From NCBI GenBank assembly GCA_028876395.1, contig JAGWRX010000129.1, positions 1 through 50,877 on the forward strand: DNA of 50,877 bases, written 5' to 3'. A model generated the notes under the pieces. That model had not been told where the DNA came from. It saw only the letters and a program-made list of their open reading frames with translations, and searched no databases. Each line of letters opens with the position of its first letter. The stretch's first letter is position 1. The position numbers and the translations under genes are program-made. Positions 17,299 to 42,536 of the stretch are shown piece after piece. This DNA comes from Acidobacteriota bacterium. Its GTDB lineage: Bacteria > Acidobacteriota > Terriglobia > Terriglobales > Acidobacteriaceae.

Positions 17299-17306
17299 GA
17301 GGGTGG

Positions 17307-22062: not shown

Positions 22063-22077
22063 CCTGTTCCTGGCGCG

Positions 22078-23614: not shown

Positions 23615-23622
23615 TTCGCCGC

Positions 23623-24852
23623 ATGAAAAGGATTCTCATTCTGGAAATCTCCGGCAGCGGGCATCATCCCAGCTATCTGCGGCGCATTCTGGAATCAGGC
23701 ATCCTCGACGCGGCGCATGTGATTGTCGCCGGACCCTCCAGCCTGTCGGCTCACAGTGAGCTGAGGGATCTCCGTTCGCAGTACGAGTTCCATGAGTTGG
23801 CCATCGATCCGAACCAGCAGGCGCGGCTCGCGGATTTCTCCGCCATCGGCCTTGTCCGCCGGGAATTTGTCCTGCGTGCGATTTTTGAAAGAGCATGGCG
23901 GCGCGCCTGCAGCAGCGGACAGATTGATCTGGTCGTGCTGCCGCTGGTGGATGGATGCGCGAACGCAATTGCCTTGCGAGGCGCGCCGTTTGGCGGCACG
24001 CCCTGGATCGCCGTCTCCATGCGCGCTCAGTTTCATCTGCGCAAAATGGGCGTAACGGTGCCACGAACGATCAGCCGGCTCGCACGTGAAATCCTTTTCC
24101 GCAGATTACTGCAACGGGAAAGCCTCAAGGCATTGCTCACCATCGACCCCACGCTCGCCGAATACGCAACACGCCAGCGAGCAAGCGAATTCGCAAAAGT
24201 GTGCCTTCTGCCCGATACGTGCAACACCTACACGCTCATTGAAAAGAACGTTGCGCGGAAGCAGCTCGACATTCCCATCCCTGCGAAACTCATCCTCGCA
24301 TACGGTCATTTGACCGCGCGCAAGGGAATCTTCAATCTGATACGCGCAATGACGCGCGAAGAGTGCCCAAGGCATGTGCATCTTCTGCTGGCTGGAAGTC
24401 AGGATGAGGACGTCAAGAAGTTTCTCGCCGGCCCTGTTGCCGCGCACCTTCGCGCGGAAGGCCGCCTGCACCTGCTGCCGGGCTTCGTGCCGGAGGAGTC
24501 CGTGCCCGCCCTGCTTTCAGCGGCGGACGCATTATGGGTTGGATATATCGGCTTTTACACGATGAGCAATATTCTGGTGCTTGCCGCGCGCCATCACTTG
24601 CAAGTGATTCCATCGAATCAAGGCGTGATAGGCTATCTTTCAAGCAGGCACAACCTCGGCCTGATGGTGAATCCGCTTTCTGAAGATTCAGTCGTGGATG
24701 CCCTGCGCGAGGTTGCAGACCCGCCTCCGTCGCGGCCGGAGCAGATAGCCAGGGCGCGCGCAGCATTCGCCAGTCACACCGATGCAACGTTCCATCAAGT
24801 CATGAAGCAAGCAATCCGGTCCGCTGTTCCCGATCTGATCTCTGATCGGTAG
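23623..24852 (+). CDS. Glycosyltransferase (GT4-like)
   Basis: The product is 409 aa from the ATG at 23623 (MKRILILEISGSGHHPSYLR). A longer frame back to 23242 lies inside the wzy gene and is not used. The N-domain is divergent. The C-domain has AYGHLTARKGIFNLIRAMTR, then HVHLLLAGSQDEDVKKF, and a donor-site region VGYIGFYTMSNILVLAARHH, where the usual glutamates of EX7E are not clearly kept. The transferase assignment therefore rests mainly on the fold pattern and the location. It is the last gene of the exopolysaccharide locus and ends 52 nt from a convergent phage-like gene. Confidence 0.72.
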   Translation: MKRILILEISGSGHHPSYLRRILESGILDAAHVIVAGPSSLSAHSELRDLRSQYEFHELAIDPNQQARLADFSAIGLVRREFVLRAIFERAWRRACSSGQIDLVVLPLVDGCANAIALRGAPFGGTPWIAVSMRAQFHLRKMGVTVPRTISRLAREILFRRLLQRESLKALLTIDPTLAEYATRQRASEFAKVCLLPDTCNTYTLIEKNVARKQLDIPIPAKLILAYGHLTARKGIFNLIRAMTREECPRHVHLLLAGSQDEDVKKFLAGPVAAHLRAEGRLHLLPGFVPEESVPALLSAADALWVGYIGFYTMSNILVLAARHHLQVIPSNQGVIGYLSSRHNLGLMVNPLSEDSVVDALREVADPPPSRPEQIARARAAFASHTDATFHQVMKQAIRSAVPDLISDR

Positions 24853-24904: not shown

Positions 24905-25132
24905 TCAATGCCGGTGCCACGCCTCCACGGCAACCTCAATCACGGCAAACACCACGCTGACAGCCGCCAGAAACCCCTTGGCCCGCTGCCAGCTCTGCTC
25001 GTGCCGATCCATGCGCCGTTCCAGCTCTGCAATGCGTCCGCCATTGCCGTCGCCCATCAGGCCTGCCATCTGATTTTTCAGCACGCTCAGATCGCTGAGC
25101 ACCTGCGCCTCGAATTCATTCATCATCCGCAT
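24905..25132 (-). CDS. Small XhlA/holin-like membrane protein
   Basis: The product is 75 aa. The ATG at 25132 has GGAG at 8-nt spacing. The N-terminal two-thirds are a charged coiled coil (LSVLKNQMAGLM, then RIAELERRMDRHEQSWQ). One C-terminal membrane helix follows (AKGFLAAVSVVFAVIEVAVE). This layout matches haemolysin XhlA/holin-associated phage proteins. No endolysin gene sits beside it, so a lysis role is uncertain. It is the last gene of the phage-like module and faces the exopolysaccharide locus tail-to-tail. Confidence 0.6.
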   Translation of the reverse strand: MRMMNEFEAQVLSDLSVLKNQMAGLMGDGNGGRIAELERRMDRHEQSWQRAKGFLAAVSVVFAVIEVAVEAWHRH

Positions 25133-27606: not shown

Positions 27607-28581
27607 CTATATCAGCGCGCTGGCAGCCGGCATGAAGCTGCGATAACACAGCGCGCGCTCCCCATCCAGCGGGTCTGTCACAGGCAATGCCAGAAATGTT
27701 CCTTTCAGGAGCACTCTCTCCAGGCCGCCCTTCTGTTTGGCGTCGAGAGGGATGCTCGATTCCTCCGCACCGGTCATTGTTTGCAGCCGGGGATAGTGGA
27801 AGAAAATTCGCTCTCCCTGCCGGCCTTCGACCGCGAACAGCGCCGACCACTCCTGATAAAACGCGCCGCCCTCGCGATCGACAAAGCCCGTCACACCCTG
27901 CAGCTTTGCACCCGCTGCCGGCGCGCCTCCGGGCAGTGGCGCGGCCAGCGTCAGCGAAGTTGAGCTGACCTGGGAAACCAGCGCGACATTGAATGTGACT
28001 CGCCGGATGTAATCCACATCCGTCAGCGCCTGCCGCACATACGCGCCCGACACGGGCGACCCCACGTAGCCCGTCTGCCCCGCGTAGTCCGCATCAATCG
28101 CGATCATCGACCCGGCCTTGAAGTTTGCCGCATCGGTGGAACTCAACACCACATTCGTCGCGGTTGACCCGCTCAGCACCGTGACCGCCGCCGCTGCCTG
28201 GGCTCCGTCGGCAGATGCAGTTGCGCCCGCTGCCGCCACCAGCAGATTCATATGCTGCGAGCCTGTGGCCAGCGCCATGGTCAGCTTGGTCCAGCTTAGA
28301 AACTCAAAGCTCACCTGTGCTTCCAATGTCTCGCGTATCTGCTCCAGCGGAGACGCGGGAATCCCCGCCAGCACCGGAGCCGTCTTGCTTGTTGGCTTGC
28401 GCGTGAATCCCTGGATCCATCCCAGGCTGATCCACGGCGCGGGAGGCGCGTCCAGGTTGAATGAGCCCTGCTCCGCAGGGTCGAAGAGCACCGGCGTCTG
28501 TGCTGCGCGATTCACGGGCGCAAAATATGCCCGCACGCGCCGCGCCACAGGCGCAGGAGATGAAAACCAGTTCGCTGCCAT
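27607..28581 (-). CDS. Phage tail-tube-like protein
   Basis: The product is 324 aa. Its ATG directly follows the stop of the preceding gene (TAAATG), so translation is coupled. The N-terminal third contains WISLGWIQGFTRKPTSKTAP and LEAQVSFEFLSWTKLTMALA, which fit the beta-rich opening of major tail proteins. The middle (about 115-240) is Ala/Thr/Ser-rich like an inserted immunoglobulin-type domain, and VDYIRRVTFNVALVS is a conserved-looking strand pair. It sits after the small connector proteins, the normal place for the tube protein. I could not confirm the family from sequence alone. Confidence 0.55.
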   Translation of the reverse strand: MAANWFSSPAPVARRVRAYFAPVNRAAQTPVLFDPAEQGSFNLDAPPAPWISLGWIQGFTRKPTSKTAPVLAGIPASPLEQIRETLEAQVSFEFLSWTKLTMALATGSQHMNLLVAAAGATASADGAQAAAAVTVLSGSTATNVVLSSTDAANFKAGSMIAIDADYAGQTGYVGSPVSGAYVRQALTDVDYIRRVTFNVALVSQVSSTSLTLAAPLPGGAPAAGAKLQGVTGFVDREGGAFYQEWSALFAVEGRQGERIFFHYPRLQTMTGAEESSIPLDAKQKGGLERVLLKGTFLALPVTDPLDGERALCYRSFMPAASALI

Positions 28582-29067
28582 TTACTCCCCCTGCTCCTGA
28601 TAGCTGTAAACCGTAATTTTGGCTGACCGCATGATGCGATCACGCTGCACAACGACTGGCGTAAAGGCCGGCTCACCCCAGAACACCTGCGTCAGCATCG
28701 TCCCGGGCGGCTGGGTAACATAGTTGAGCTTTGGAGTGTAGAAGGGCTGCACCATCGCGGTCAGTTCCTCGTCCATTTCACTTAACAGCCGGCCGCGATC
28801 CAGCCCGCCGAAGCTCTGTGTGCCGCAAGTCTGGTAGATGATCTCGCACTCCTCGGCAACCATCGTTGAATCCAGATCCAGATCAGCGCCAAGGCCAAGC
28901 CATCGCAGTACGAATACGTCAGTGGGCAGTTGGCTGAACGGCGCCTCTGCCTCTTCCACCAGGATCCCAGGGCGCTGCGCCCCGCGCAGCAGGACGGTGC
29001 GCGCCGGATTGATGGTTGCCAGCCGGGCACGCAGAGCCATATAGAAAGAGTCTTTCGCATTTTGCAT
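28582..29067 (-). CDS. Phage tail-completion / neck-like protein
   Basis: The product is 161 aa. AGGAG lies 9 nt before the ATG at 29067. It begins with an amphipathic helix (DSFYMALRARLATINPARTV), followed by strands (GILVEEAEAPF, CEIIYQTCGTQSFGGLDRGR) and a C-terminal strand pair ending KITVYSYQEQGE. This size and position, immediately before the tube-like gene and coupled to it by TAAATG, are those of tail-terminator or minor tail proteins. No named family was recognised. Confidence 0.6.
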   Translation of the reverse strand: MQNAKDSFYMALRARLATINPARTVLLRGAQRPGILVEEAEAPFSQLPTDVFVLRWLGLGADLDLDSTMVAEECEIIYQTCGTQSFGGLDRGRLLSEMDEELTAMVQPFYTPKLNYVTQPPGTMLTQVFWGEPAFTPVVVQRDRIMRSAKITVYSYQEQGE

Positions 29068-29116: not shown

Positions 29117-29551
29117 TCACAAAGCCTGCGGCCGCGCCTGGCGCAACAGCAGCCGGTAGAGATACACCTGGCCGAAGGCCTCGTTCGAGGCGATCGATTC
29201 GATCAGGTAGTCCTGCCCGGCCACAGTGAGAGCAAGCGTCGAAGCGAAGAGGGCCTGGGCCGACGCAAAGTTGAGCGTCCCCAGCTGCTGTTCCACTCCG
29301 GTTGCAGACATGAATAATTCCCACTTGGGCTGGTCGCCTTCCTGCCAGCTCGGACGCAGCCTGCGCATCGCCACAGGACTTACCACAACGTCAACAAAAG
29401 CGGTAGCCACCAGTCCAACTTCAGACTGGCTTGTGTCAGTATTTGTGCTGGTGACTCGCAGTAGAGCCGATGTCCCAGCAACTCCCCGCAGCAGGGCATC
29501 AGCCAGCATCGCTGGAGCCCACACCGGATTGCGCGGCGCCGTATCGCTCAT
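29117..29551 (-). CDS. Small phage head-tail joining-type protein
   Basis: The product is 144 aa. The start at 29551 lies just 3 nt after the stop of the connector gene, so the two are coupled. It has a short helical opening (NPVWAPAMLADALLRGVAG) and then mostly beta strands (SALLRVTST, VGLVATAFVDVVVSPVAMRR, DYLIESIASNEAFGQVYLYR). Its size and order match head-closure or head-tail joining proteins. Function is assigned by position; no motif is diagnostic. Confidence 0.6.
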   Translation of the reverse strand: MSDTAPRNPVWAPAMLADALLRGVAGTSALLRVTSTNTDTSQSEVGLVATAFVDVVVSPVAMRRLRPSWQEGDQPKWELFMSATGVEQQLGTLNFASAQALFASTLALTVAGQDYLIESIASNEAFGQVYLYRLLLRQARPQAL

Positions 29552-29554
29552 TGC

Positions 29555-30178
29555 TCACCCCAGCCTGTTCGCAACGTACGGGCGCAGCCATGCCTGCACT
29601 GTCTCGTCGACCAGCGAACTTGAGAAATACTGCATCCACATTGTGTCGATTCTGGTTCTGCTCGCGTTCAGTGCCGGCGTTGCCTGCGCATTGCGCACGA
29701 TCTGCGCGCAGGCAGTCTTGATGTCGTCACCGATTGTCGCGAGCCCGGCTGTATACGTCACCATTACCTCGTTGTACGGCAGGCCCAGCAGGTTCCAGGG
29801 CAGCGTCAGCTCTCCCGTGGCGGAGTCATAATCCACGGATGCGGGGTCAATCCCGATCCATTGCCCGGGCAGCGAGAAGGCCCAGCTGATTTCAAAAAGC
29901 GTCTCGTCAACAATCTGCCCGCGCCGTGGCTTGGCATAGCGCCCCTCGACGCTCACCAGCGGCGTGGTTGCGGCGCCCAGCGGCGCCAGGGGCAGATACG
30001 TCAGGCGCACGGCCTGCGATCCACTGGTAATGCGCAGGCGCTCGGTGTACTGGATCACGTTCAAGTCGGGCCGCCTGCAGTAGCTGTTGATGAGTGCCGT
30101 GGCGGCTGTAACCCAGTCCGCCGTTGTGCCAGCCGGCAATCCATAATTGGTGTAATCCGCTGGCTGCAGATATGCCAT
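29555..30178 (-). CDS. Phage head-tail connector protein (gp6-like)
   Basis: The product is 207 aa from the ATG at 30178, with AGAGGG about 6 nt upstream; a TTG two codons earlier is less likely. It opens AYLQPADYTNYGLPAG, then an Ala-rich helix (ADWVTAATALINSYCRRPDL), a beta domain and a helical end (DDIKTACAQIVRNAQATPAL). This helix-rich, two-domain plan is that of HK97 gp6-type connector proteins that dock onto the portal. It directly follows the capsid gene, as in HK97-type modules. A hairpin (30265-30290) lies in its leader. Confidence 0.7.
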   Translation of the reverse strand: MAYLQPADYTNYGLPAGTTADWVTAATALINSYCRRPDLNVIQYTERLRITSGSQAVRLTYLPLAPLGAATTPLVSVEGRYAKPRRGQIVDETLFEISWAFSLPGQWIGIDPASVDYDSATGELTLPWNLLGLPYNEVMVTYTAGLATIGDDIKTACAQIVRNAQATPALNASRTRIDTMWMQYFSSSLVDETVQAWLRPYVANRLG

Positions 30179-30264
30179 ATCCAACCCTCTTTCTGTTCCA
30201 GCCCGATGGTCTGAAGTAATTGCCTGGTAACCCCTGCCGATAGCATGTGGAGCGCGCTGAAAGC

Positions 30265-30317: not shown

Positions 30318-31286
30318 TTACCGGTCAACCAGCACCTGGTAGTGCGCGTAGTTGGCGCCCTTGACGACCAAGCCGCCGAACTTGACGGCAACGTACTGGT
30401 GGGCGAGGGAGTTGGGCAGGCCGAGCTGGAAGATGCGCGGCGTCGGATCGCCGAGCCAGTGATACTCGATCAGGTCCTCCGTCACGATGTAAGCCGGAAG
30501 CACCGCTGTACCCGAACCCGGGGTGCCCGTGTAACTCAGGCTCCAGTCCGGAATCAGCGGCAGGTCGCCCGCCTGCGTCGAGAGCATCTTCACGCGCAGG
30601 CCGCCGGTGATCTGATCGGTGTTCAGCACCACGTTGAACTCGGTTTTCATCTCGCGGTCAATCAGGTCCAGCAGCACCGGGTTGGCGTAGATGGCCGTGG
30701 GGCGCACCGCGTAGCCGTTGCTGGCCACCATCTGCGCTACGGCGGACTTGATTCCATCCACGATCGAGGCGCTGGTGCCGATGGTTGTCGTGTTGCCGCC
30801 CGCCGCAATCTGCGCGGCCGCACCGTAGTACTGCGTGGTGGTGGGCGTGCTCAGGCTGGTGTCGTTGCCGTTCCACAGCGCAACGTCGTGCGCCACCATC
30901 ACGCCGCTCACCGTGTCCACCAGGTCCTTGGCCTGCAGATAGGCGAACTGCTGCTGCTGGTTGCCGAGTTCAATGTCGAACAGGTTGTAGTTGATCTGCG
31001 AAACGATGGCCTTCAGCGGCACGCTGCGCTCCACGCGCGTGGGGCTCACCACCGGCGCAACGATGCTGCGCGGTTCCACGAAGCCTGCCGTGCCGGGGTT
31101 GGGAAGAGCCGTCTCCTCGAAGAATCGCGAAGGGTGGCCCGTCGCGGGAACCTGCTTGATGCGCTGCCCGAAGGGGCTCGAACGGCGGCAGATGTCGAAG
31201 ATCTCGGTCTGATACAAGGGAACTTCAACTGCGCCGGGCCCGATAAAATCAGCTGCTGCGTGAATATCTGCAAAGGTTGCGTTCAT
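30318..31286 (-). CDS. Phage major capsid protein
   Basis: The product is 322 aa from the ATG at 31286 (MNATFADIHAAADFIGPGAV). An ATG at 31307 is in frame, but the GGAGGGGG Shine-Dalgarno sequence lies inside those extra codons, so the later start is preferred. The sequence has the look of a short HK97-fold capsid protein without a delta domain: a helical N-terminal arm, ETALPNPGTAGFVEPRSIVA (E-loop-like), a central spine helix (NQQQQFAYLQAKDLVDTVSG) and a C-terminal strand block (EYHWLGDPTPRIFQLGLPNS). A separate scaffold-like gene lies just upstream, consistent with a capsid protein lacking its own delta domain. Confidence 0.75.
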   Translation of the reverse strand: MNATFADIHAAADFIGPGAVEVPLYQTEIFDICRRSSPFGQRIKQVPATGHPSRFFEETALPNPGTAGFVEPRSIVAPVVSPTRVERSVPLKAIVSQINYNLFDIELGNQQQQFAYLQAKDLVDTVSGVMVAHDVALWNGNDTSLSTPTTTQYYGAAAQIAAGGNTTTIGTSASIVDGIKSAVAQMVASNGYAVRPTAIYANPVLLDLIDREMKTEFNVVLNTDQITGGLRVKMLSTQAGDLPLIPDWSLSYTGTPGSGTAVLPAYIVTEDLIEYHWLGDPTPRIFQLGLPNSLAHQYVAVKFGGLVVKGANYAHYQVLVDR

Positions 31287-31343
31287 AGGCTTTTCCGCCC
31301 CCTCCATGGGGCCAGTAGTAACTCAGTAAACAGCAGGCAGCAC

Positions 31344-31441: not shown

Positions 31442-31840
31442 TCAGGCGATGGCCCCTGCCCGCAGCAGTTGGCTCTTCACTGCAATGCGCTGCTCCAGGC
31501 TCAGCCCGGCCAGCGCCGCATCCAGAGTCCGCACGTCCACCGGACCCTCGCCAACGCCGTGTTTGGCCAGCATCTCCGCGGTTGCCGCGGGCATTGTTTT
31601 GCGCAGCGCGGTCAGAGCCGAGGGCGCGGCTGCTGCTTTCAATTCGGCAAGCTCCCTCTCGGTGGCCGCCAGTCTTTCAGCCAGCTCTGCTTCACGCCGG
31701 CTCTGCTCCACGGTTGCGGAGATCCTCTCCACCTCGCCGGTCAGCAGGCTCTGCCGCTGTTCAAGCCAGCTGAGCGTGCGTTCCAGCAGGGCGGTCGCAG
31801 CTTCAAGCCGCTCACTTATCCCTCTCTCTTCGTTCTCCAT
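31442..31840 (-). CDS. Coiled-coil phage scaffold-like protein
   Basis: The product is 132 aa from the ATG at 31840, with GGAAGGGG upstream. The frame extends to 32044 across a terminator and the end of the protease gene, so the longer version is rejected. Residues 5-75 form a charged heptad coiled coil (ERLEAATALLERTLSWLEQR, AELAERLAATERELAELKAA). A short helical C-terminus follows (LDAALAGLSLEQRIAVKSQL), which could bind the capsid. Placement between protease and capsid genes, with this composition, is typical of scaffolding proteins. Confidence 0.6.
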   Translation of the reverse strand: MENEERGISERLEAATALLERTLSWLEQRQSLLTGEVERISATVEQSRREAELAERLAATERELAELKAAAAPSALTALRKTMPAATAEMLAKHGVGEGPVDVRTLDAALAGLSLEQRIAVKSQLLRAGAIA

Positions 31841-31897
31841 GAAATCCCCTTCCTGTTCGCTGTGAATCTCGCGCGCTTTGAGCGCCATCCAGGCAGC

Positions 31898-31950: not shown

Positions 31951-32451
31951 CTAACTTGCCATTTTGAAGCTGGTGGCGCGATAGGCTGCCTTCTCTCTCA
32001 GCAGGATTGCCGCGCCCGTAAAGGTCACGCGGGTCAGCTTCCATATCTCAGCCCGCATATCTTCCACCCGCGCGTCCGCCAGCTCGTAACTCATCCCCAT
32101 TGCTTCTGGAGCCTGCGCCTCAATTGCCTTGGCTACGTCGGGAAAGTCCCGCGCATAAAGATAGCCACGCACCACTAACTTGTTGCCCGCCAGGTTGGCT
32201 TCGGTCAGCAGCCCGATCTTGCGCCGGGCATCGTGTCCGTCCCATCCTGGCCGGTAGTCCACCGCCATTCCCATCAAAGAGGGCAGCGCCTTTTCCGCTG
32301 CCTCTCGCGTCAGCATCACCCGGTGTCCGCGCGCGCCGGCCGGAGCCTTGTCACTTGCCGCGTTGACCACCGTCAATACCCCTTCAAACGGCACCCTGTT
32401 CGGATGCCCTTCGACGTGGGGAATGTGTACCGCCATTGCTTCCAATCGCAT
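31951..32451 (-). CDS. Putative prohead maturation protease
   Basis: The product is 166 aa from the ATG at 32451 (MRLEAMAVHIPHVEGHPN), which has GGAG 5 nt upstream; the frame opens at 32625. A possible catalytic pair is H73 in GWDGHDARRKIG and S121 in MGMSYELADARV. These are spaced like the His and Ser of phage prohead proteases (S78/U9 type), and the strand after the serine (LTRVTFTGAAILLREKAAYR) also fits. It lies between the portal and scaffold-like genes, where such proteases occur. No full family signature could be confirmed, so the call relies on position plus this pair. Confidence 0.6.
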   Translation of the reverse strand: MRLEAMAVHIPHVEGHPNRVPFEGVLTVVNAASDKAPAGARGHRVMLTREAAEKALPSLMGMAVDYRPGWDGHDARRKIGLLTEANLAGNKLVVRGYLYARDFPDVAKAIEAQAPEAMGMSYELADARVEDMRAEIWKLTRVTFTGAAILLREKAAYRATSFKMAS

Positions 32452-32569
32452 GCGCTCTCCGCCCATCTGCTTTCGCTTGCCCGGCCATGCCTGAACAGCG
32501 GCCAGGCCGGGTTGCGCTCCGCTAAGGCATTTTTCGGAATGTTTATAGACATTTTGAGATCGGCGAGAG

Positions 32570-32637: not shown

Positions 32638-33930
32638 TTAACCTGCCTGCCCTGCTTCCGCTTCGCCTGCCAGCTGCACCGCTCCGTTCTTTTCGAGAGG
32701 CCCCAGCCCGCGCATTGCCCGCACTTCGTTCACCGTCAACACACCGGCCTGCAGCAACTGCACCTGCACAGCCAGCTCTGTCTCCTCGTCTCTCGCATTC
32801 AGATCGTTGAAGACAAACTCGAATTCGCGCCACCCGATGCACTTGGCGAACAGGTCGCGTGTGATGTGGCCAGCCAGTAGCTGGGCCAGCGGCAGAATCG
32901 CTCCGCGAAACGCCTCGTCCGCCAGTTCTGCCGCGGTCGAGCGATTGACATCGCCCTCCAGCCCCAGCAGCAGCGGCGGCAGCCCAAACGCGTTGGCCAC
33001 CATGCGAATCAGAAATTCCTGCCAGGCCAGCCGCAGGTCCGCATCCGTGCCTTGCGCAAAGCGCAGCACCTCGGGCTTCTGCTCGGTTGAGAGCAGCGGC
33101 ACGCGGCCCGTGCCCTCAATCTCGTCCTGCCACCAGCGAATCAGGCGGTCGTGCTGCGCGGGTGTCGCCTCGTTGAGCCACAACGCATACTGCGCCACGG
33201 AGTTGGCTGCCAGCTTGCCCGCGAAGCGATGCGCGCTTAGAAACTGATTCACCGTTTCGAAGGCAACCTCCAGCGGCCCCAGTCCAAACGGCGTAAAGCT
33301 GCGCGGATTCATGCGCACATAGATGAGTTGGTTGTCGCGCAACTCCACGGCGCTGGACTCGAGCTGGCCCGGCATCGCCTGCGCGTAGCGGGGCGAGTCC
33401 TGCTGGCCGTCCCATCGGGCGTTGATGCGGATCGACGCGCCATCCACGGGCCACAGCATCGCGGGCCGCTCTTCGTCGCCGGTCGGCTCCATCTCAATCG
33501 CTCCGAAGCCGCCGGTGAGCGCGTCCTCGATCACCTGCTCGATCAGCGTGCGAAAGCTGTCTACGCCGTTGGGCTCTTCCAGCGTCCGTCGCAGGCCCTG
33601 CAGGCGGCGGATTGCCTCGGCCCTGTCGGCCGGTTGACAGCCGCGCCGCACGCGCACCTGCCAGTCCATCGCCGCGATGCGATCCTTGATGACGTTGATG
33701 GCGCGGCGCACCACCGGCGTTTCTGCAAACCGGCGCAGGTTCGCCGGCGTCGGCTTGGGCAAGTGCCGCCCCGGAAACTGCATCGGACTCAGAACGGCGG
33801 GCAGCGCCAGCGTTTTGCGCTCCGCCTCGGCATCGGCTGCGCTTGCTTCCATATCCGCCTTGCGGCCCGCAGGCCAGGCGGTCGCCTGCCGCCACATCTC
33901 CCGCAACTGTTCTCCTACCCTCACGCGCAC
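32638..33930 (-). CDS. Phage portal protein (HK97-type)
   Basis: The product is 430 aa from a GTG at 33930. A second GTG at 33924 has better spacing from AAGGAAG and may be the real start. The sequence shows the portal pattern: VVRRAINVIKDRIAAMDWQV near the N-terminus, IEQVIEDALTGGFGAIEMEP, the wing/stem region SAVELRDNQLIYVRMNPRSF, and GLPPLLLGLEGDVNRSTAAE, a typical crown-proximal helix region. The end, VNEVRAMRGLGPL, is common in phage portals. It forms the dodecameric DNA gate and docks the terminase. Unusually, it is separated from the terminase gene by a kinase/DUF3037 pair and has its own possible promoter. Confidence 0.88.
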   Translation of the reverse strand: MRVRVGEQLREMWRQATAWPAGRKADMEASAADAEAERKTLALPAVLSPMQFPGRHLPKPTPANLRRFAETPVVRRAINVIKDRIAAMDWQVRVRRGCQPADRAEAIRRLQGLRRTLEEPNGVDSFRTLIEQVIEDALTGGFGAIEMEPTGDEERPAMLWPVDGASIRINARWDGQQDSPRYAQAMPGQLESSAVELRDNQLIYVRMNPRSFTPFGLGPLEVAFETVNQFLSAHRFAGKLAANSVAQYALWLNEATPAQHDRLIRWWQDEIEGTGRVPLLSTEQKPEVLRFAQGTDADLRLAWQEFLIRMVANAFGLPPLLLGLEGDVNRSTAAELADEAFRGAILPLAQLLAGHITRDLFAKCIGWREFEFVFNDLNARDEETELAVQVQLLQAGVLTVNEVRAMRGLGPLEKNGAVQLAGEAEAGQAG

Positions 33931-34154: not shown

Positions 34155-34991
34155 TCAGACGCGCAGTTCGCGCCGCGCCGTTTCCGCCACGCGGCCCAGG
34201 TCCGATGTGGTCAACACGCGAATCTCGTGTTCTTCCATCGTCTCCACGCCAAAGCGGTAGATCGCCAGCCGCTCTGGTTCGGCATCGGTCGCGCCCAGTT
34301 TTGCGGCGGGCTCAATAATCGCGGTCAGCTCGAGCGATGCCTTCTCCACGCGCTCCACGCCGGCGCGCAGGCTGGCAGCGGAGAAGGCCAGCACCTTGGC
34401 CATCTCCACTCCTGGCTCCAGGCTCACCGCGTGAAACATGCGTATCACGCCGTTGGGCCGGTAGCCCACGTCAATCCACAGCGGATCTCCGGGCCGTGTG
34501 TAGTCCGCAGCGGCGATGCGCTTGCGCAGCAAGTCCCACACGCCGGCGCGCTCAAACTCCGTGCGCATCTTGGCCTGAATGCCCGCCCTGCCGCTCAGCC
34601 GCTGCGCCCGCTCGCGCGCCGGCGGATCGACATAGAGCCGCATCAGCTCTTCCATCCCTGCGGGAAGACTCTCCGCCAGATAAGCCTTGGGCGCAGTCAT
34701 CTGAACGTTCAATGAGAGCGACTCATCGAGCAGGCGCATCAGCTTGCCGTCCGCATCCTCAAGAAAGCGCCTGCGCAGCTCGCTCTCCATGCCTTCCAGC
34801 AGCGCGATATCAGCCTCGGGATCGATGCAGCGCACGCGGCGCCAGTCGCGCGTAAAGCGCACCTCCGCCGGCTCGCTGCTGCCCTGCTCGCGCAGAATCA
34901 CGCCGATGTGCACATACTCATTCCGCACCGCGTCCGGCACGTAGCGCAGCAGTTGAAACTCGCATGTCCGCCGCTCGTTTTCGCTTTTCAT
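34155..34991 (-). CDS. DUF3037 domain protein, partner of HipA-like kinase
   Basis: The product is 278 aa, 18 nt downstream of the HipA-like gene. The N-terminal half has the DUF3037 signature: CEFQLLRYVPDAVRNEYVHI followed by GVILREQGS, and then RFTRDWRRVRCIDPEADIAL. The C-terminal half is a second alpha/beta domain ending in VLTTSDLGRVAETARRELRV. DUF3037 has no known activity. In other bacteria it is commonly encoded beside a HipA-like kinase, as here, so the two probably act together. Its place inside a phage head operon, not in the host backbone, is notable. Confidence 0.82.
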   Translation of the reverse strand: MKSENERRTCEFQLLRYVPDAVRNEYVHIGVILREQGSSEPAEVRFTRDWRRVRCIDPEADIALLEGMESELRRRFLEDADGKLMRLLDESLSLNVQMTAPKAYLAESLPAGMEELMRLYVDPPARERAQRLSGRAGIQAKMRTEFERAGVWDLLRKRIAAADYTRPGDPLWIDVGYRPNGVIRMFHAVSLEPGVEMAKVLAFSAASLRAGVERVEKASLELTAIIEPAAKLGATDAEPERLAIYRFGVETMEEHEIRVLTTSDLGRVAETARRELRV

Positions 34992-35009
34992 CCCAGGCGC
35001 CGCCGCCTC

Positions 35010-35921
35010 CTACGTCACTCTTCCCACGATGCTAGCTTCCCCGCGCGCATCCTTCAAACCGTCCTGCGTCATTTCCTCGTTCATTTCGCCCCATTTGGGA
35101 AATGGCCTGCGATCCGATTTCCCGAAGGCTTCAATCAGTTCGCGTATCCGGCCGCGGCGCGCCAGCAGCTTTTCCACCAGCGCCTCCATTTCAGCGAGGT
35201 CGCCGCCATACCACTCCGGCGGAACTTCGTTGGCCGCAGCCCACACGGTTTCAGCGGGCATGGCCTCCATGCGCGAGAGCCAGGGCTCAAACGACTCCCA
35301 CCCTGTTATCCCGCGGTAGACGTCGTTGCGGTAGTAAACACCACGCAGGGGAATATCCGCAAACTTCCATTCCCCGGCGTGAAAGCAATACCCGTAGTCG
35401 ATGAAGACCGCGCGGTAGCGCCGCTCGCGCTGCCTGCGCGCAAACACCGCCTGCCGTCCGTTGGCGTTGCCGGTCCACTTGTCCAGCGCCAGGATGCCGG
35501 CGAACTCGCCGAGGTTCCTCACCTCGCACAGTTGCTCCTCGGGCAGGTAGTCCACCACCTGCCCGGGCATCAGCCCGCCTACAAAGCGCGACCCGAACTG
35601 CAGTCCCGGCTGGCATCGCGCCCGCGTCCGGCCCAGGTCCATCTCCAGCTCCGGCGTGTTGTCCACCAGCCAGCCTGTCACCTCCACCAGCTCGGCCTCG
35701 GGAGCCGTAAGCCCCGCCGCCACAGCCAGCCGCGAGGCCAGCAGCTCATTGGCCAGCACACGCACGTGCTGCGGGTTGTTCTGGAACTTCACCACGTACG
35801 CGTGGCCGTCCGCGCCCAGCATCAACTGGCCCTGTGCACCGCCCCGCATCCGCCGGATATGCTGCACTGCCAGAACCGCCAAGCCCGTCTCCTCACGCGT
35901 TACAAATTGCTTACCCGCCAT
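35010..35921 (-). CDS. HipA-like Ser/Thr kinase domain protein
   Basis: At 303 aa it is shorter than canonical HipA (about 440 aa) and lacks the N-terminal HipA sub-domain. Kinase features can be placed: ATP-binding K45 (AYVVKFQNN), the helix-C glutamate E59 (LANELLASRLA), catalytic D147 with N152 and N154 (LALDKWTGNANGRQ), and the metal-binding aspartate D175 (VFIDYGYCFH). All are intact, so activity is likely. The gene starts 28 nt after the terminase stop on the same strand and probably shares its transcript. No HipB-like antitoxin is adjacent; the DUF3037 protein takes that position. Confidence 0.8.
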   Translation of the reverse strand: MAGKQFVTREETGLAVLAVQHIRRMRGGAQGQLMLGADGHAYVVKFQNNPQHVRVLANELLASRLAVAAGLTAPEAELVEVTGWLVDNTPELEMDLGRTRARCQPGLQFGSRFVGGLMPGQVVDYLPEEQLCEVRNLGEFAGILALDKWTGNANGRQAVFARRQRERRYRAVFIDYGYCFHAGEWKFADIPLRGVYYRNDVYRGITGWESFEPWLSRMEAMPAETVWAAANEVPPEWYGGDLAEMEALVEKLLARRGRIRELIEAFGKSDRRPFPKWGEMNEEMTQDGLKDARGEASIVGRVT

Positions 35922-35948: not shown

Positions 35949-37556
35949 CTAACGGCTGCGCACACTGCTTTCCAGGAGCTCCGCGCGTGCGGCCAGGCCG
36001 ATGGCCATGGCCATCACCCGGTCGTCATGCAGGCCCGCGCGCGCCCCCGTGCTGCCGTTGGGCAGGCGCACAAAGCTGCGGCACTCGGCCAGCAGCCGCC
36101 GGCTCAGGAAGCGCTCCGGCTGCTCGACCAGCGCCGCGTCCAGCCTGCCCAGCACCGCTGGTCTGCTGACGGATGTGGTCAGCCATCCCGGCTGCCCCCC
36201 TTGATGATGGATGCGGGTGTAGCCGCACGCCGTCTGAGCCAGCGCCAGCACGCCGCTGCCGTGATTGTTGCGCTCCACCACCAGCCATGCATTGTTGTAT
36301 TCGCCCGCCAGCGCCGTCACCAGCTTTGCCAGTTCCAGCCCGCCCACGTGCCCGGCAAACTCCGCGCACTGCAAGCCTGTCTCCAGCTCCAGCACCTGGG
36401 CAGCGGAGTAGTCCCCTTCGCTGCCGCCGCCGGCCGGGTCCAACGCGACCATGTACTCCTTGCCCTTGACCGGAGGCAGCCATATCTCCAGCTCGCCATT
36501 GCGCCGCTGCTCGGCCGCGGGCGGAGCCGTCGCCATGCGCGCTTCAATTGCCGCCAGATCGAAGACGGAATCGCCGCTGGCTCTGAAGCAGCTCTCGCTG
36601 TCCTCGGCGTACTCCTGCCGCGCCAGCCCGCGAAAGTTCGCCCGCACCTGCCGGCGAAAGCCGATTTGCTCCAGATCCAGATGCGCGCGCGTCATCAGCT
36701 CTCGCTCTTCATCGGTCAGGCTGGCCGCGTCAACGGCCTCGGCGCGATAGCGAGGCTCCATCCACCACGGGAAGAAGTGCCGCACCATGCCTGTCTCGGC
36801 GGCCTTCTGCCACTCCTCGTAAAAGCAACCGCCTACACCTTCCGGCGTCGATTCCAGAATCAGCTCGCCGCCGGGCGCGAGCGCCGCGCGCAGCCCTGCC
36901 AATGTTTCCGCGGGGTTGCCCGGCCAGCGCGCCAGCTCAGAGCAATGCAGATTCTGCACCGTCAGCCCACGGCCCGCGTTGCGTTCACCCGCAGACACAA
37001 CCATGTACTGCGAATCCATCGCAGGAAAGGCAATCTGACGCACATTCGCGCGTGAGGTCTTCAGCGGCCCATCGCGCAGGGTCTCCGGCAGCCAGTCCAG
37101 AAAGCGGTGCACAATCCTGAAGATCTCCTCTGCGGCCTCCTGCGTGTGTGCCACCTCCAGCGTCAGCGTCCCCGGCTGCGTGATCGTCTTCAGAAAAAAG
37201 CGCGCCGCGGCCCACGTGGTCAAGCCCATCTGCCGCGCCTTCAGCACGATGTTGCGCCTGCCGCGACGCTGCTCAAAAGCCTGCTGCACACCATTCGCCC
37301 TGAGCGGCTGCGTTGAGCCATCGCGTGTGCGTACGCGCAGCAGGCCGCGGGCCAGTGCAATGGTCACGGTGCGCCCGCGCAAACTCGCCGGGCGCTGGTC
37401 AAGGATGCGCCCGAATCTCTCCAACTCCTCCCGGTCCAGCGCCCATGGCCACGCGCTGTCCTGCTGCGCGCGCAGTCCTTCTCCGCCTGTGCCTGCCACT
37501 TGTCCTCCGCCCGCTGTGACTTGCTGAGTTGTGCGGAACTGGATGCGCCTCATCAT
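35949..37556 (-). CDS. Phage terminase large subunit
   Basis: The product is 535 aa from the ATG at 37556. The frame is open to 37691, and an ATG at 37595 is also possible; no start has a strong ribosome site. The ATPase domain has a deviant Walker A, KARQMGLTT (residues 106-114), and a Walker B-like segment ending in E207 (LHCSELARW). The nuclease domain has D373 (VALDPAGGGSEGDYSAAQVL), D382 and a C-terminal acidic pair (GLHDDRVMAMAIG) that would bind metal. It packages DNA into the prohead through the portal. A small terminase subunit is not recognisable next to it. Confidence 0.9.
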   Translation of the reverse strand: MMRRIQFRTTQQVTAGGGQVAGTGGEGLRAQQDSAWPWALDREELERFGRILDQRPASLRGRTVTIALARGLLRVRTRDGSTQPLRANGVQQAFEQRRGRRNIVLKARQMGLTTWAAARFFLKTITQPGTLTLEVAHTQEAAEEIFRIVHRFLDWLPETLRDGPLKTSRANVRQIAFPAMDSQYMVVSAGERNAGRGLTVQNLHCSELARWPGNPAETLAGLRAALAPGGELILESTPEGVGGCFYEEWQKAAETGMVRHFFPWWMEPRYRAEAVDAASLTDEERELMTRAHLDLEQIGFRRQVRANFRGLARQEYAEDSESCFRASGDSVFDLAAIEARMATAPPAAEQRRNGELEIWLPPVKGKEYMVALDPAGGGSEGDYSAAQVLELETGLQCAEFAGHVGGLELAKLVTALAGEYNNAWLVVERNNHGSGVLALAQTACGYTRIHHQGGQPGWLTTSVSRPAVLGRLDAALVEQPERFLSRRLLAECRSFVRLPNGSTGARAGLHDDRVMAMAIGLAARAELLESSVRSR

Positions 37557-37744: not shown

Positions 37745-40700
37745 TTACTGAATCGCGCGAACGTTATACGTGCATGCTGCCGGTGTTCCCGCCACCACCG
37801 CAACCACGCTTACCGCTGCCGATCCTGCCGCGCTTATCCTGCACTTCTGCACAAATCCAGCGCCCGCAGTACATCCCGCTGCTGCGCTGGCATCGCACGT
37901 CATCGAAGTTGTCGCGGTCGGAATGCTTGCTGTTCCTGTCGCTTCCTGTCCTGCCGTCAAAGCAGAACCGCCAATGCTCCCGGTGGTTCCAGCAGCAATC
38001 ATCGATGGGGCGAATTCGATATTGGCGATGTGCGTTGTCTGCCCTGTCACGCCGTAGTTGAGAAGAAATACTCCCCTGATGAACGCAGTTCCAGGCGCGA
38101 AGGCGGAGTTGGACTGTGTCCCTCCAACAGAAGTTCCCGAAATATACCCCGAAAATTGCTGCCACGAAGAGGTAAGCGCGGCTGCACCCGCTGCTACATA
38201 CTGGTAGGTCCCAGCCGGATTAGTGTTGGAAAGCGAGGTTCCAGCGGGAATCGTTGGTCCGCTCCACGCAGCCGTCAGTGTGATTACATTTCCAGAGATT
38301 CCTCCGACTGCCCAAAGCCCATTCGTGACATACGAGCCACCGTATCCGTCGGTGGTGTTGTTCTTGCTGTATGTGCCGACAGGATAGGCATAACCGCCCG
38401 CGTTGATGTAGTTCCAGAAGATAGCCTGACGCTGATAAGAATTGCTTGAGGAACCTGCCCAGTTTGCGCTGCTCGTCAGCGTGATGGTCGTATCGCCGGG
38501 GTTCAACTGCGCGGCCAGAGTCGTCGTCGTTCCAGAGACGTAGACATAGTCTTCTGGGAAAATCTGGTTCTGATCAATATCAAATGCCGTGATGCCTGCA
38601 TAAAGCTGGTTGCCACTTTGACAGGTTGCCAGGCAGGTCGCCCAGAGACTCATCTTGTATTGCAGGCCAGTGTCAACAGGCATCAGCTCATTTGTAAAAT
38701 ATGCCGACTGGGCCGTTGAGCTGTAAAAACTTCCTCCTGTCACTCCCTGCGCCCCGTCATAGGTAAGGGAAGGGAAATTCTGATTGTTTTTCAAATACGC
38801 TGTGCCATTCGTGACGAGGTTTCCAGAACGGGACAGGATGTAACTCTGCACCGGGGCGGTGGTTGCCGTCTGTGTCTGCACAAAAGCTGTCGTAGCAACC
38901 TGGGTGGTATTTGTCCCCTGCGCGGCGGTTGGAGCGGTGGGAGTTCCGGTCAGAGCAGGAGAAGCCGCCAACACCACGCTGCCCGTGCCGGTGGTGCTTG
39001 CGGTCGTCACGTTGCCGCTGCCATCCGTGGACAGAGCGGGGGCTGACAAGATGCCCGTATCCTTGATGCCCGGAACCGTCGCCGTGACCGCCTGCTGGGT
39101 GGTAAGGTTCACGCCATCAAACACGGTAGCCGGGCCGCTCGGAATCCACTTGCTCAATTCCTGGTCAAACACATAGGTCTGCTCACTGTACGCCATGCCC
39201 ACGCCTACGGTGGGCGCGGTCGCATAGTTCGCGCCGTTGGTGCTCATGGTCGCGCTGCCGGTCAGGTTACCGCTTCCATCCGTGGTGATGAAGGCTGCCG
39301 GAGGCACAACCGGCACATTCGACGCGGTAGACGTTCCTCCGATGAATTGCAGTCGAATTTGCGTGTTGGCTGGATACCCCGTGCCACCGGAACACGTTAC
39401 ACCCGTTACGGTGCCTGAGCCGATTGTCGCGGTACAGGTCGCACCCGTTCCCGTTCCTCCGTACCCGTTGGTAGATGGAGGAGCTAGGAAGCCAAGCACG
39501 TTTCCGGGCGCGCTTACGGTATAAGGTCCGCTCCCCTGCGGAGGCTGCACAAGACGGACGCGCATCTTCGCGCCCTGCCATCCGTTGAGGAAGCTGAAAT
39601 TGCCACTGCTCAAGTTGGCAGGAATATTAAGCGACTGATAGACAGATTGCGTCGCGTCGAACTGGTAAGGCGACGCGGCGTTCTGCACCTGAAAATAGCC
39701 GTCAGACGTGGCCAGATTCTGCTGCGTGACGGAACCATACAGCAGCGCATTGCTGTTGGTGCTCAGCATTGCGCTTCTCGATAAGACTTCGGGGGGCGCG
39801 GCATAAACAAAGTTGCCCTTGAAGGTCTGCGCCGTCAATTGGTTGTCCTGGCCGATGTACGCGTAATGCGACGGTGGCGTGCATCCGCTGGAGATTCCAT
39901 AGCAGGGATCAACCTTCACAACGGACTGCTGAATGTCGACCGAGCCCGCGACAAGCGTGGGAGCGGAAGTTGTTTGATATTCAATCACCGAAATCGGCGA
40001 CCCGATGTTCGGCGGTATGGCATGATCGTCCGAGCCGCGCACGTTTACATCCGAGGCATACGCGATGACGAAATACTGCCCCGTCGCTGTCCTGTAACAT
40101 AGCTCGCATTCCGCATCGTTCAGTTGCAGGTGATTTCCCAGCAGGCTGAAGACCGTGCCATAGGCATTGTCGGCTTCGATGGACGATGCAGTGACGCTGC
40201 CCGCCACGCCTGTTGAAATCACCGGCTCGCCCACGGTCTGCGTGCTGTAAATGTGCCTGAGCTGGATGCGCGGGTCGCCGCCCGCATTCGAGAGATAGAG
40301 CGTAGCGCCGCTCAGTCCGCCGCCGCCCGTGACGCGATCAATGGTGTAGCCCCACACGGCCTGGTTCGCATTGCCAATGCCGATGCCGCGAAAGCCGCCA
40401 TAGAACATCAGGCGGCTCATGTCCCAGGTGTAGAAATCGTTGCCGTTCCCGCTGGCGTTGAAATAGACGCCGACCGAATTGGTGAAACTCGGCGGCTGGT
40501 AGTTGGCGTAATCAAAGCTAAGGTCACTGACTTGAAATCCCCACGCACCACCCTGAGTCAAGTTCAGGATGGGTGTATTGTCCGTCAACTGGACGAGCTT
40601 CACGCAGCCCATCGCCGAGCCTAGAATCCTGAAGCCGGTGGGAACAGCGCTGCTGTTGTTTACCGTCAGCGCACCCGAGATCAGATAGGTGCCGCATGGC

Positions 40701-42043
40701 ACAAAGAACTGCTGGCCGCCATCGGTCCAGTTGATCGGCTGCGATAGAACTGTCTGCATGGCGCTGTTGAGCGCTGCAGTGTCGTCCGTTCCGTAGTATG
40801 CCTTCACGCCGGTTGTCACGTCCGTGGTGGCGGCGGTGGCAAGCGTAACGTGCGTGGAGTCCACCACGGAAGCGATGGTCGTCTTGAGACCCGCGCCCGG
40901 AAGTACGTTCGAGCCATCCTGCGCCCATCCAACGGAGATCGTGGGAGCAGCAGCATAGTCCATGCCGCCCACCCAGATGTGCATCGTGGGCGCGCCGCTG
41001 GAATTTGTAGTGATATACCCCTTCGCTGTCACAGCGGGGCTTGACCCGGCGCTGCTGAATGTCACAGGAATCGTGGCGCTTGCCGGAAGGCCGCTGTATC
41101 CAGAGAACGAAACCGCTGTAACCACGCCGCTGGTGTTGATGGTGACGGTCGCCGTTCCGAGCGCGCCGCCTTGCAGATACGTGGCTCCCGCGCCGGGAAT
41201 GTTGATGGTCTTGCCTGCGTCCGCGGCTGTGAACGAGCACGCATTGCAGGTCACGGTCGTAATGCCGCCGACCGTCGAGGTTGTCATCGTGCCGGCTCGT
41301 CCATCTCCCACGGCGCCGGCGTCCTTCACGTTGTAGCGCTGTGATGTGTCAGCGTAGTGCTGCGTGGCAAATTGAAGCCGCGCTGCCGCGCCGCCCGGCG
41401 GATCGGAAGCAGCATAGCCGGGGCCAGTTAACGTTCCGCCGGACAACGGCATGGCGAGCGCGAAGCTCGAATCCACGTAGTGCTTGTCGGCCGCCTGCAG
41501 CGGCTGCGAGGGATCGCCGCTGAGATAGAGCGGTCCGGTTAATGTGCCGCCCGAAGGCGAAAGAGAACTCGATGCCATCGTCTGAATTGCCTGGTCCACG
41601 TATGACTTAGTTACTGCCTGCACGGCCTGGGCCGCAGGCATCACTTGTGCGCGCACCTGCGCGATGGTTGCCTGTGCCGCCGCGGGCACCACCCAGTACT
41701 CCGTGCTTGTGGTGCCGTCGCTCATGTTATAGACGGCGGTGTAAAACAGGCCTGCGGGCGAGGAGCCCAGGTTGGGAACCAGGTTCACGCTCACAAAGCC
41801 GTCTGTGCCGATGGTCGCGCTGGTACGGCCTGCTGCTACGGCGGCGCCGCTCGCGGTGGTAAATGCAGGCCAGCTCAACTGCAGCGTTCCTGAGCCGGGC
41901 GCGCCATTGGCCAGATACACCGTTCCCTGAACGGTTGTTGTGCTGATGGTCTGCGCACAGGCCACCCACGCCCATGCCAAGCCAATCAGAAACATCCCTA
42001 TCCATTTGCCGGCGCGAAACCACGTCGTCTTTGTGAGCTTCAT
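37745..42043 (-). CDS. Secreted tail-spike-like protein with pectate-lyase-type beta-helix
   Basis: The product is 1432 aa. The N-terminus is a Sec signal peptide (GKWIGMFLIGLAWAWVACAQ, residues 12-31). Next come a beta-sandwich (35-120) and two phage tail-fibre repeats (GGTLTGPLYLSGDPSQPLQA plus KHYVD at 165-191, and again at 202-231). A pectate-lyase-3/GH28-like beta-helix entry follows (YNVKDAGAVGDG at 237; DDTAALNSAMQ at 420; GTYLISGALTV at 451). A further fibre repeat (ALTGTPTAPTAAQG plus QVATTAFV) lies near residue 1065, and a beta-rich C-terminus ends the protein. Such modules make trimeric spikes that bind or degrade polysaccharides. A signal peptide is not expected on a cytoplasmically assembled tail protein. 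It is the second gene of the module, ahead of the terminase. Confidence 0.82.
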   Translation of the reverse strand: MKLTKTTWFRAGKWIGMFLIGLAWAWVACAQTISTTTVQGTVYLANGAPGSGTLQLSWPAFTTASGAAVAAGRTSATIGTDGFVSVNLVPNLGSSPAGLFYTAVYNMSDGTTSTEYWVVPAAAQATIAQVRAQVMPAAQAVQAVTKSYVDQAIQTMASSSLSPSGGTLTGPLYLSGDPSQPLQAADKHYVDSSFALAMPLSGGTLTGPGYAASDPPGGAAARLQFATQHYADTSQRYNVKDAGAVGDGRAGTMTTSTVGGITTVTCNACSFTAADAGKTINIPGAGATYLQGGALGTATVTINTSGVVTAVSFSGYSGLPASATIPVTFSSAGSSPAVTAKGYITTNSSGAPTMHIWVGGMDYAAAPTISVGWAQDGSNVLPGAGLKTTIASVVDSTHVTLATAATTDVTTGVKAYYGTDDTAALNSAMQTVLSQPINWTDGGQQFFVPCGTYLISGALTVNNSSAVPTGFRILGSAMGCVKLVQLTDNTPILNLTQGGAWGFQVSDLSFDYANYQPPSFTNSVGVYFNASGNGNDFYTWDMSRLMFYGGFRGIGIGNANQAVWGYTIDRVTGGGGLSGATLYLSNAGGDPRIQLRHIYSTQTVGEPVISTGVAGSVTASSIEADNAYGTVFSLLGNHLQLNDAECELCYRTATGQYFVIAYASDVNVRGSDDHAIPPNIGSPISVIEYQTTSAPTLVAGSVDIQQSVVKVDPCYGISSGCTPPSHYAYIGQDNQLTAQTFKGNFVYAAPPEVLSRSAMLSTNSNALLYGSVTQQNLATSDGYFQVQNAASPYQFDATQSVYQSLNIPANLSSGNFSFLNGWQGAKMRVRLVQPPQGSGPYTVSAPGNVLGFLAPPSTNGYGGTGTGATCTATIGSGTVTGVTCSGGTGYPANTQIRLQFIGGTSTASNVPVVPPAAFITTDGSGNLTGSATMSTNGANYATAPTVGVGMAYSEQTYVFDQELSKWIPSGPATVFDGVNLTTQQAVTATVPGIKDTGILSAPALSTDGSGNVTTASTTGTGSVVLAASPALTGTPTAPTAAQGTNTTQVATTAFVQTQTATTAPVQSYILSRSGNLVTNGTAYLKNNQNFPSLTYDGAQGVTGGSFYSSTAQSAYFTNELMPVDTGLQYKMSLWATCLATCQSGNQLYAGITAFDIDQNQIFPEDYVYVSGTTTTLAAQLNPGDTTITLTSSANWAGSSSNSYQRQAIFWNYINAGGYAYPVGTYSKNNTTDGYGGSYVTNGLWAVGGISGNVITLTAAWSGPTIPAGTSLSNTNPAGTYQYVAAGAAALTSSWQQFSGYISGTSVGGTQSNSAFAPGTAFIRGVFLLNYGVTGQTTHIANIEFAPSMIAAGTTGSIGGSALTAGQEATGTASIPTATTSMTCDASAAAGCTAGAGFVQKCRISAAGSAAVSVVAVVAGTPAACTYNVRAIQ

Positions 42044-42080
42044 GCGTGTATTGTCCTTTGCCTTTTTGCCGACGAGGCCA

Positions 42081-42194: not shown

Positions 42195-42536
42195 TCAACC
42201 TTCCGGCTCGCGGCTTCCGCCTGCGGTTTCCGCGTCCTGCTCGCTCATTTCGGCGAGCCACTCCGGCTCGGCCGCCCATTCGCCCGCCAGGCTGCGGATC
42301 GTTCGGGATAACTCGGCTGCACCGCGCTTCTCGTGATATTCGGCCAAATCGTACAGGAATTTGATGCTTTGGAGATGGCCTTCCAGGGAGCTCCTGGCGA
42401 GCGCCCTCGCGATTTCAATACTGCTCTCTTCCAGCACCATGTCGGCCGCCACGCGCAAATCCGCGGCGCCGCTGTACTTGTTTCCCTGCGTCCGTGGCGG
42501 ATCCATTTCCACGGGCATTTGTTCCGATTCGTTCAT
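42195..42536 (-). CDS. Small helical protein at head of phage-like module
   Basis: The product is 113 aa. The ATG at 42536 is preceded by GGCGGACAG. A disordered N-terminus (QMPVEMDPPRTQGNKYSG) leads into two or three helices (DLRVAADMVLEESSIEIARA, EGHLQSIKFLYDLAEYHEKR, ELSRTIRSLAGEWAA). The C-terminus is acidic and Gly/Glu-rich. No family was recognised. As the first gene before spike and terminase, it could be a divergent small terminase subunit, but no helix-turn-helix is apparent. An unrelated chromosomal or phage accessory role is equally possible. Confidence 0.55.
   Translation of the reverse strand: MNESEQMPVEMDPPRTQGNKYSGAADLRVAADMVLEESSIEIARALARSSLEGHLQSIKFLYDLAEYHEKRGAAELSRTIRSLAGEWAAEPEWLAEMSEQDAETAGGSREPEG

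Follow-up and report, generated by a model that had tools for sequence, protein, structure and literature searches.

A putatively exported phage-type spike in a gene-transfer-agent-like capsid cluster of Acidobacteriaceae

The window analysed here is a stretch of 50,877 nucleotides from an Acidobacteriota bacterium of the family Acidobacteriaceae (assembly GCA_028876395.1, contig JAGWRX010000129.1, positions 1 to 50,877). It carries on the minus strand a cluster of 15 genes, the second of which (37745..42043) encodes a phage-type spike with a predicted Sec signal peptide. Judged by its genes, the cluster is a gene-transfer-agent (GTA)-like element, passed on in the same way as ordinary chromosomal loci and subject to purifying selection. 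We tentatively read the spike as the envelope-matured adsorption spike of a domesticated, GTA-like tailed-phage particle of Acidobacteriaceae, an explanation to which we give slightly less than even confidence. Its computed basis consists of kept signal properties, paired cysteines, cluster membership, host-like inheritance and purifying selection.

Conservation of the spike signal peptide

The spike open reading frame is uninterrupted, starts with ATG and encodes 1432 amino acids (aa). Its N-terminus, MKLTKTTWFRAGKWIGMFLIGLAWAWVACA followed by Q, combines a charged n-region with a hydrophobic core and an AxA-type site, and is assigned from the sequence and from homologue leaders as a Sec/SPI-type signal peptide of residues 1-30 (41954..42043, minus strand, as are all features below). 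A preliminary description of the window had proposed a phage-type spike with such a leader, and both the reading frame and the layout of the N-terminus bear this out. A Shine-Dalgarno-like AAAGGA (42054..42059) lies 11-16 nt upstream of the ATG; purine-rich stretches occupy about the same position in most of the 19 relatives printed.

Spike homologues were taken as the best 120 of 1289 reaching E 0.001, and their leaders were scored by our own criteria (not SignalP): a hydrophobic core, a positive n-region and, by a lax pattern, an AxA-type site. Seven of the 120 fall outside the count: P0005, P0030 and P0091 have neither the N-domain motif nor such a signal, P0009 was missed by the motif pattern, and the leaders of P0090, P0116 and P0118 were too short for scoring. 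All three criteria were passed by 109 of the 113 scorable homologues, and the lax AxA-type site was present in all 113; here and below, relatedness inflates the counts of homologues and loci. Mean identity of these leaders to that of the window was 42%, and a drift simulation, star-like and ignoring relatedness, kept the three properties in 42% of cases at 45% identity and in 31% at 35% identity. The predicted export signal of the preliminary description thus holds up, its retention is above chance, and the signal peptide looks used.

Across 28 aligned N-termini Q31 is invariant and A30 nearly so, which, together with the AxA-type site in every scored leader, is as expected for cleavage. Signal peptides usually change freely in sequence while the domain that follows stays constrained; pN/pS is 0.82 in the leader versus 0.28 in the domain behind it. 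A further 23 loci were searched; 20 of them yielded 21 complete spikes, and all 21 have a hydrophobic leader. Of 32 relatives recovered with a query of prophage type, every one contains a hydrophobic segment and 25 match a strict leader pattern. Export of the spike is well supported by computation.

Evidence against the signal, it had been said beforehand, would be homologues that begin only at residue 35 or beyond. This is not what was found: N-terminal matches within the genus begin at residue 1-25, with the leader in front; the exception, in G040, lies at a contig end. Nearly all scorable listed homologues carry the leader, and the N-domain copies seen without it are mini-proteins of 95-99 aa (L201:7037-7324 and L207:1237-1536). 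Five weaker N-domain matches outside the family (G084, G076, G380, G189 and G276) were left out of signal scoring.

Domain architecture

Behind the leader lies an N-terminal domain of ~110 residues (TTTVQGTVYLANG...EYWVVP; ~residues 31-140, 41624..41953), the marker domain of the spike family, followed by fibre repeats assigned from sequence and alignment (GGTLTGPLYL.., KHYVD; ~residues 160-235, 41339..41566). Both repeats reported earlier, GGTLTGPL and PTAPTAAQG...ATTAFV, are present in the translation. The pectate-lyase-type helix that had been proposed along with them fared less well in the window sequence: one PDB match, 7chu (a putative pectin lyase, E 6.4e-4), covers residues 401-494 (40562..40843), the best-supported part; precomputed annotation assigns PF12708 to fewer than half of the 120 homologues listed, and the window spike had zero matches in Pfam and PHROG. 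The C-terminal fibre domain (residues 1067-1344, 38012..38845) is homologous to Herelleviridae tail proteins and is common to those of Bacillus phage BM15 and Enterococcus phages, with 30-35% identity among the best 20 of 33 matches. A full-length spike query found no relatives in IMG/VR.

Paired cysteines

According to a passage of PMC7678975, exported bacterial proteins favour even cysteine numbers owing to disulfides. Pairing the 16 mature cysteines of the window spike in sequence order gives eight pairs, and in six of these the partners are 3-14 residues apart. Even numbers were counted in the mature parts of 109 of 117 listed homologues, with 10-38 cysteines each (104 of 117 with a cruder signal cut), in 22/23 complete spikes taken from loci (a set that overlaps the first), in 20/21 complete spikes from further loci, and in 28 of the 31 scorable among the 32 relatives from the prophage-type query. 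Kinship reduces the parity effect and does not remove it, since clusters by C-terminal sequence stay even in nine of nine cases and looser clusters in five of five.

Control proteins were even in 18/28 (TerL), 16/26 (HipA), 8/16 (hub), 8/28 (portal), 23/28 (HTA), 18/25 (g161), 26/26 (DUF3037, always two cysteines), 4/28 (MnmA) and 7/26 (IscS), the skewed ones having small, nearly fixed cysteine counts. Among called proteins from the same loci, those with neither signal nor membrane segment were even in 13/30 cases with at least 8 cysteines and in 54/93 with at least 4; those with a signal were even in 5/5 and 7/9, respectively. Two cysteines, 1137 and 1141, lie in the C-terminal domain of the spike, where the aligned BM15 and EfV12 copies have none, and the genome encodes a VKOR disulfide oxidase. 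This pattern, with homologues that follow the even-number rule, suggests that the spike is a disulfide-bonded envelope protein completed outside the cytoplasm, and indirectly supports its cleavage and export in vivo.

Distribution and inheritance of the capsid cluster

The cluster comprises, in this order, a 113-aa protein, the spike, terminase, a HipA-like protein, DUF3037, portal, protease, scaffold, capsid, adaptor, two small genes, tube, hub and a 75-aa membrane protein. Gene calling used a simple in-house script, and capsid and hub were named mainly from position. Among tailed-phage structural proteins, portal, terminase and head-tail adaptor have family matches, those of capsid and tube are weak, and the hub has none.

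Its distribution was followed in 200 genomes from 79 genera of Acidobacteriaceae, many of them incomplete bins. A capsid gene without stops occurs in 115 of these genomes and 52 genera, in one copy per genome except for G627, which has two partial matches, and the spike domain occurs in 139. Both are found together in 109 genomes, the capsid only in 6, the spike only in 30 and neither in 55. In a first sample the spike was matched in 46 of 58 other genomes of the window's genus, two of the matches being stubs; an apparent limitation of the cluster to one genus (47 and 44 of 99 genomes) was a sampling effect of a set that held no other genus of the family. The cultured soil strain Terracidiphilus gabretensis S55 (now Occallatibacter), which NCBI places in Acidobacteriaceae, carries the cluster at locus L119.

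Neighbour order is identical in 36 mapped loci as far as these reach, and most further loci of the family share it. All 53 distinct loci with both genes have the spike just upstream of terminase and in the same orientation. A rule that the spike always stays with terminase was dropped because of the capsid-bearing genomes G046, G618, G500 and G516, where it lies elsewhere (loci L308-L312). Among 52 distinct clusters whose contig extends far enough to show the flank, 38 have purE or purK as a neighbour; asparaginase, considered as a general left flank, was found in 6/30 and rejected. Four genomes of genus g31, and another four contigs, have the two main gene blocks in swapped order, and the cluster is split over two loci, its parts kept, in G037, G032, G050 and G054 (the last without a spike match) and probably in G016 and G013. 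Features of full endogenisation are thus the purE/purK flank, split clusters with flank on both sides and the lack of any integrase recognised among the called genes; replication and lysogeny genes were likewise not recognised among the called cluster genes, and no search aimed at integrase families was made.

Vertical inheritance was judged by distance correlation and copy number. In Mantel tests, distances of the 15 cluster genes correlated with those of host IscS at r 0.46-0.76, the value for IscS against MnmA being 0.65. Median dN/dS, with synonymous sites near saturation, was 0.07-0.17 for 13 genes (portal 0.10, capsid 0.08), compared with 0.10 and 0.12 for host genes, 0.23 for the N-terminal part of the spike and 0.33 for the 113-aa protein.

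Phage and prophage relatives

The capsid protein had zero matches in 50,697 phage records, and terminase matched such records at 27-31% identity (best 20 of 421 matches). Spike N-domains with a signal peptide follow apparent siphophage-type tail genes at L200, L202, L203 and L288, in other families and one viral contig; we take these genes for tail modules from motifs and gene size rather than from a family search. Because signal-bearing N-domains stand behind such apparent prophage tail genes, the signal was probably already present in the phage ancestors. At L204, a homologue of 441 aa lies among housekeeping-type genes.

A 107-kb phage-like contig (G104; L168 and L169) encodes a distant capsid (48%) and portal (36%) and has a tape-measure-sized gene of 1736 aa between tube and hub; it is possibly a relative of the cluster's ancestor. 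Its hub-, capsid- and tape-measure-sized proteins had no PHROG matches, and their gene names are our own. Its 498-aa fibre-like protein without signal was considered as a spike homologue and discarded, as profile comparison with the spike N-domain gave no homology. The same outcome was obtained for the first 333 residues of a 2004-aa protein of a Mu-like prophage. That protein (L158:9034-15045, in G099, beside the prophage) has a signal peptide, collagen-like repeats and 22 cysteines. On a viral contig (L139:59-1718), scaffold and capsid genes (capsid 87%) stand beside unrelated phage-like genes, either through capture by a phage or through chimeric assembly. A section of PMC12142844 describes a phage-derived region without excision genes in an Acidobacteriaceae genome, which may or may not be this cluster.

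Spikes without capsid, stubs and fusions

Long spike frames without a capsid match were found at L292, L293 and L295, and at L302 with masked bases. Of four spikes from capsid-less genomes that were checked, one had an even and three an odd cysteine count. G009 and G020, both near complete genomes, lack a terminase or capsid match. Each retains a spike stub at this position: in G009 the stub is flanked by purE and asparaginase, and in G020 it precedes the 75-aa gene. Stubs of 110-195 aa with a leader occur in genomes without the cluster at L248, L249, L250, L253, L254, L260, L205 and L206; some end in similar residues, perhaps reflecting one old deletion.

In-frame fusions of signal, N-domain and the C-terminal part of the hub, with no capsid match, are encoded at L296:8271-11096, L301:9942-13001, L303:422-3247 and L251:6304-7218. 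Capsid absence is soft for two of these genomes, which are incomplete (G525 53%, G550 84%). Three of the fusions are even in cysteine count, one of them with an uncertain start. The existence of such fusions suggests that spike and hub act together.

Proposed role of the spike and alternatives

In the role that we propose, the spike would be exported by Sec, would trimerise and form disulfides in the periplasm, and would join a short-tailed particle when producing cells open, meeting it at the exit and binding its hub. The particle might then bind, and perhaps cut, a surface polysaccharide of kin and could transfer DNA. A particle role is favoured because the spike is upstream of terminase in 53/53 loci, co-occurs with the capsid, has relatives at the ends of apparent tail modules and, in genomes without a capsid match, is found fused to the hub. 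A wider form of this proposal, which we put forward with low confidence, is that acidobacterial tailed phages and the domesticated cluster divide their assembly between two compartments: heads and stub tails would form in the cytoplasm, and spikes would pass through Sec into the oxidising periplasm, gain disulfides there and be loaded at the exit; the cluster would then be a family-wide unrecognised GTA with a strain-variable spike.

Several points weigh against the proposed role. Six genomes have a capsid and no spike match, and 30/200 have a spike domain and no capsid match, 13 of these with open frames of at most 330 aa. Three capsid-bearing genomes (G618, G500 and G516) encode the spike on a separate contig, where no terminase adjoins it; in G046 the 113-aa gene adjoins terminase and the spike sits on another contig, of only 9.3 kb. 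Mantel correlations with host MnmA are weaker (r 0.20-0.71), those of DUF3037, g144 and the 75-aa gene not being significant. No lysis enzyme was recognised in the cluster, the hub-like and tube-like identities are positional or weak, and we know of no tail spike that is loaded after export. Spikes of phage P22 can be added to heads in vitro.

The main and serious rival, possible if on the whole doubtful, is that the spike is a surface or secreted protein of the cell which binds or degrades polysaccharide, its own exopolysaccharide or that of a neighbour, and which sits in a phage-derived cluster and was never part of a particle. The signal and disulfide evidence would suit such a protein too, as would the long frames without a capsid match (L292, L293, L295, L302), the spikes apart from terminase in G618, G500, G516 and G046, and the 441-aa homologue amid housekeeping-type genes. 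Its place directly upstream of terminase in every distinct locus with both genes is harder to reconcile with it, the more so as the terminase neighbourhood is kept also where the cluster is split elsewhere (G037, G013, G032, G016 and G050); relatives that close apparent phage tail modules and the odd cysteine counts in three of four checked capsid-less spikes argue in the same direction. The preliminary description had held that export implies a use other than on a cytoplasmically assembled tail. Its first premise, export, is supported by computation, and the implication has evidence on both sides: position before terminase, co-occurrence with the capsid and signal-bearing relatives at the ends of apparent prophage tail modules point toward a particle role, and intact spikes without a capsid match and spikes apart from terminase in capsid-bearing genomes point toward another use.

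It is improbable that the N-terminus remains uncleaved as a signal anchor and tethers the spike to the periplasmic face of the inner membrane, where it would be a docking site or would block superinfection: the protein does have one hydrophobic segment only and a fast-changing leader (pN/pS as above), but the nearly invariant A30, the invariant Q31 and the lax AxA-type site in all 113 leaders speak for cleavage. An ordinary or decaying prophage, whose spike would be assembled in the cytoplasm and carry an incidental hydrophobic N-terminus, would account for the phage-type genes and domains, but is very unlikely and already largely contradicted by a capsid present in 52/79 genera with host-like distances and, save in one genome, in single copy, by the lack of a recognised integrase, by split clusters with open parts, by dN/dS like that of host genes and by cysteine parity.

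Relation to known systems

GTAs are characterised in the relevant part of PMC9662315 by phage-derived structural proteins, endogenisation, often in several loci, vertical inheritance, packaging of mostly random host DNA with their own genome not fully packaged, and delivery of DNA to cells. The cluster, known from genes alone, shows tailed-phage-derived structural proteins, full endogenisation and vertical inheritance. It resembles GTAs as outlined there: genes for the head, packaging and tail of a tailed phage occur without recognised mobility genes, follow the host in their inheritance, are under purifying selection and sometimes lie at separate loci. It differs in belonging to another phylum, in a capsid unmatched among phage records, in that the hub gene directly follows the tube gene, with no tape measure recognised in its expected place between them or elsewhere in the cluster, in a spike with a Sec signal and paired cysteines, and in the HipA-like/DUF3037 pair inside it.

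Pectate-lyase-type helix tail spikes include those of P22 type. The window spike is like such proteins (PDB 7chu) in its fibre repeats, apparent helix region and exchangeable C-terminal domains, and adds to them a signal peptide and an even, paired set of cysteines. Filamentous-phage pIII is a Sec-exported phage protein. SAR endolysins and spanins, as treated in a portion of PMC3556154, are also phage proteins that, like the spike, pass through Sec or are set in the membrane. All of these are membrane-assembled or lysis proteins, in contrast to a spike of a tailed particle. The spikes of other acidobacterial phages and prophages at L200, L202, L203 and L288 share the N-domain and signal peptide; they differ in standing outside the capsid cluster, behind apparent siphophage-type tail genes with tape-measure-sized proteins.

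Among the top matches in open-licence PMC literature we found nothing on point for a GTA in Acidobacteria or for a tail fibre with a signal peptide. PMC9662315 lists two alphaproteobacterial and one spirochaetal GTA group with an established genetic basis. A capsid cluster that roughly half of the sampled family genomes carry, and on which purifying selection acts, would add a phylum to these groups and would open gene transfer in soil Acidobacteria to testing. Tailed-phage fibres are usually viewed as finished in the cytoplasm, a view that an exported, disulfide-bonded tail-type spike would contradict.

Gene content of the cluster and its neighbourhood

The first cluster gene, for a 113-aa protein (42195..42536), is by its position a small-terminase candidate. 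The terminase large subunit (35949..37556) matches phrog_2 (E 1.2e-26) and has motifs, conserved in 28 sequences, which we take to be of ATPase and nuclease type. Portal (32638..33930; phrog_2662, E 3.2e-39) and head-tail adaptor (29555..30184; phrog_442, E 1.3e-13) are assigned by family, and the tail tube-like protein (27607..28581) weakly so (phrog_476, E 0.002). The probable prohead protease (31951..32466), which has no family match, and the probable scaffold (31442..31888), which has no convincing one, are named from position. The major capsid protein (30318..31307) is recognised mainly by synteny; phrog_264 (major head protein) was matched by 4 of 19 relatives, with a best E of 0.0029, and not by the window copy. 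Roles of the 144-aa (29117..29551) and 161-aa (28582..29067) proteins are suggested by position, as is that of the 769-aa tail hub-like protein (25178..27487), which directly follows the tube and has no PHROG or Pfam match. The 75-aa protein (24905..25132), with one hydrophobic segment and no family match, is holin-like in architecture.

The HipA-like kinase (35010..35921; PF20613; PADLOC PDC-M66A, E 4.4e-8) and the DUF3037 protein (34155..34991; PF11236; PADLOC PDC-M66B, E 1.6e-6) form a pair (34155-35921), a weak PADLOC candidate for PDC-M66A/B, inside the capsid cluster in most mapped relatives. The two were rejected as essential components, since neither was recognised in G521 (L266). Directly beside the cluster, positions 7969-24852 of the window hold exopolysaccharide-type genes (UDP-glucose dehydrogenase, GDP-mannose dehydratase, glycosyltransferases, GNVR/AAA kinase-like and Poly_export); as a general neighbourhood of the cluster these were discounted, purE/purK being the commoner flank. 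The genome G521 has two spikes in tandem.

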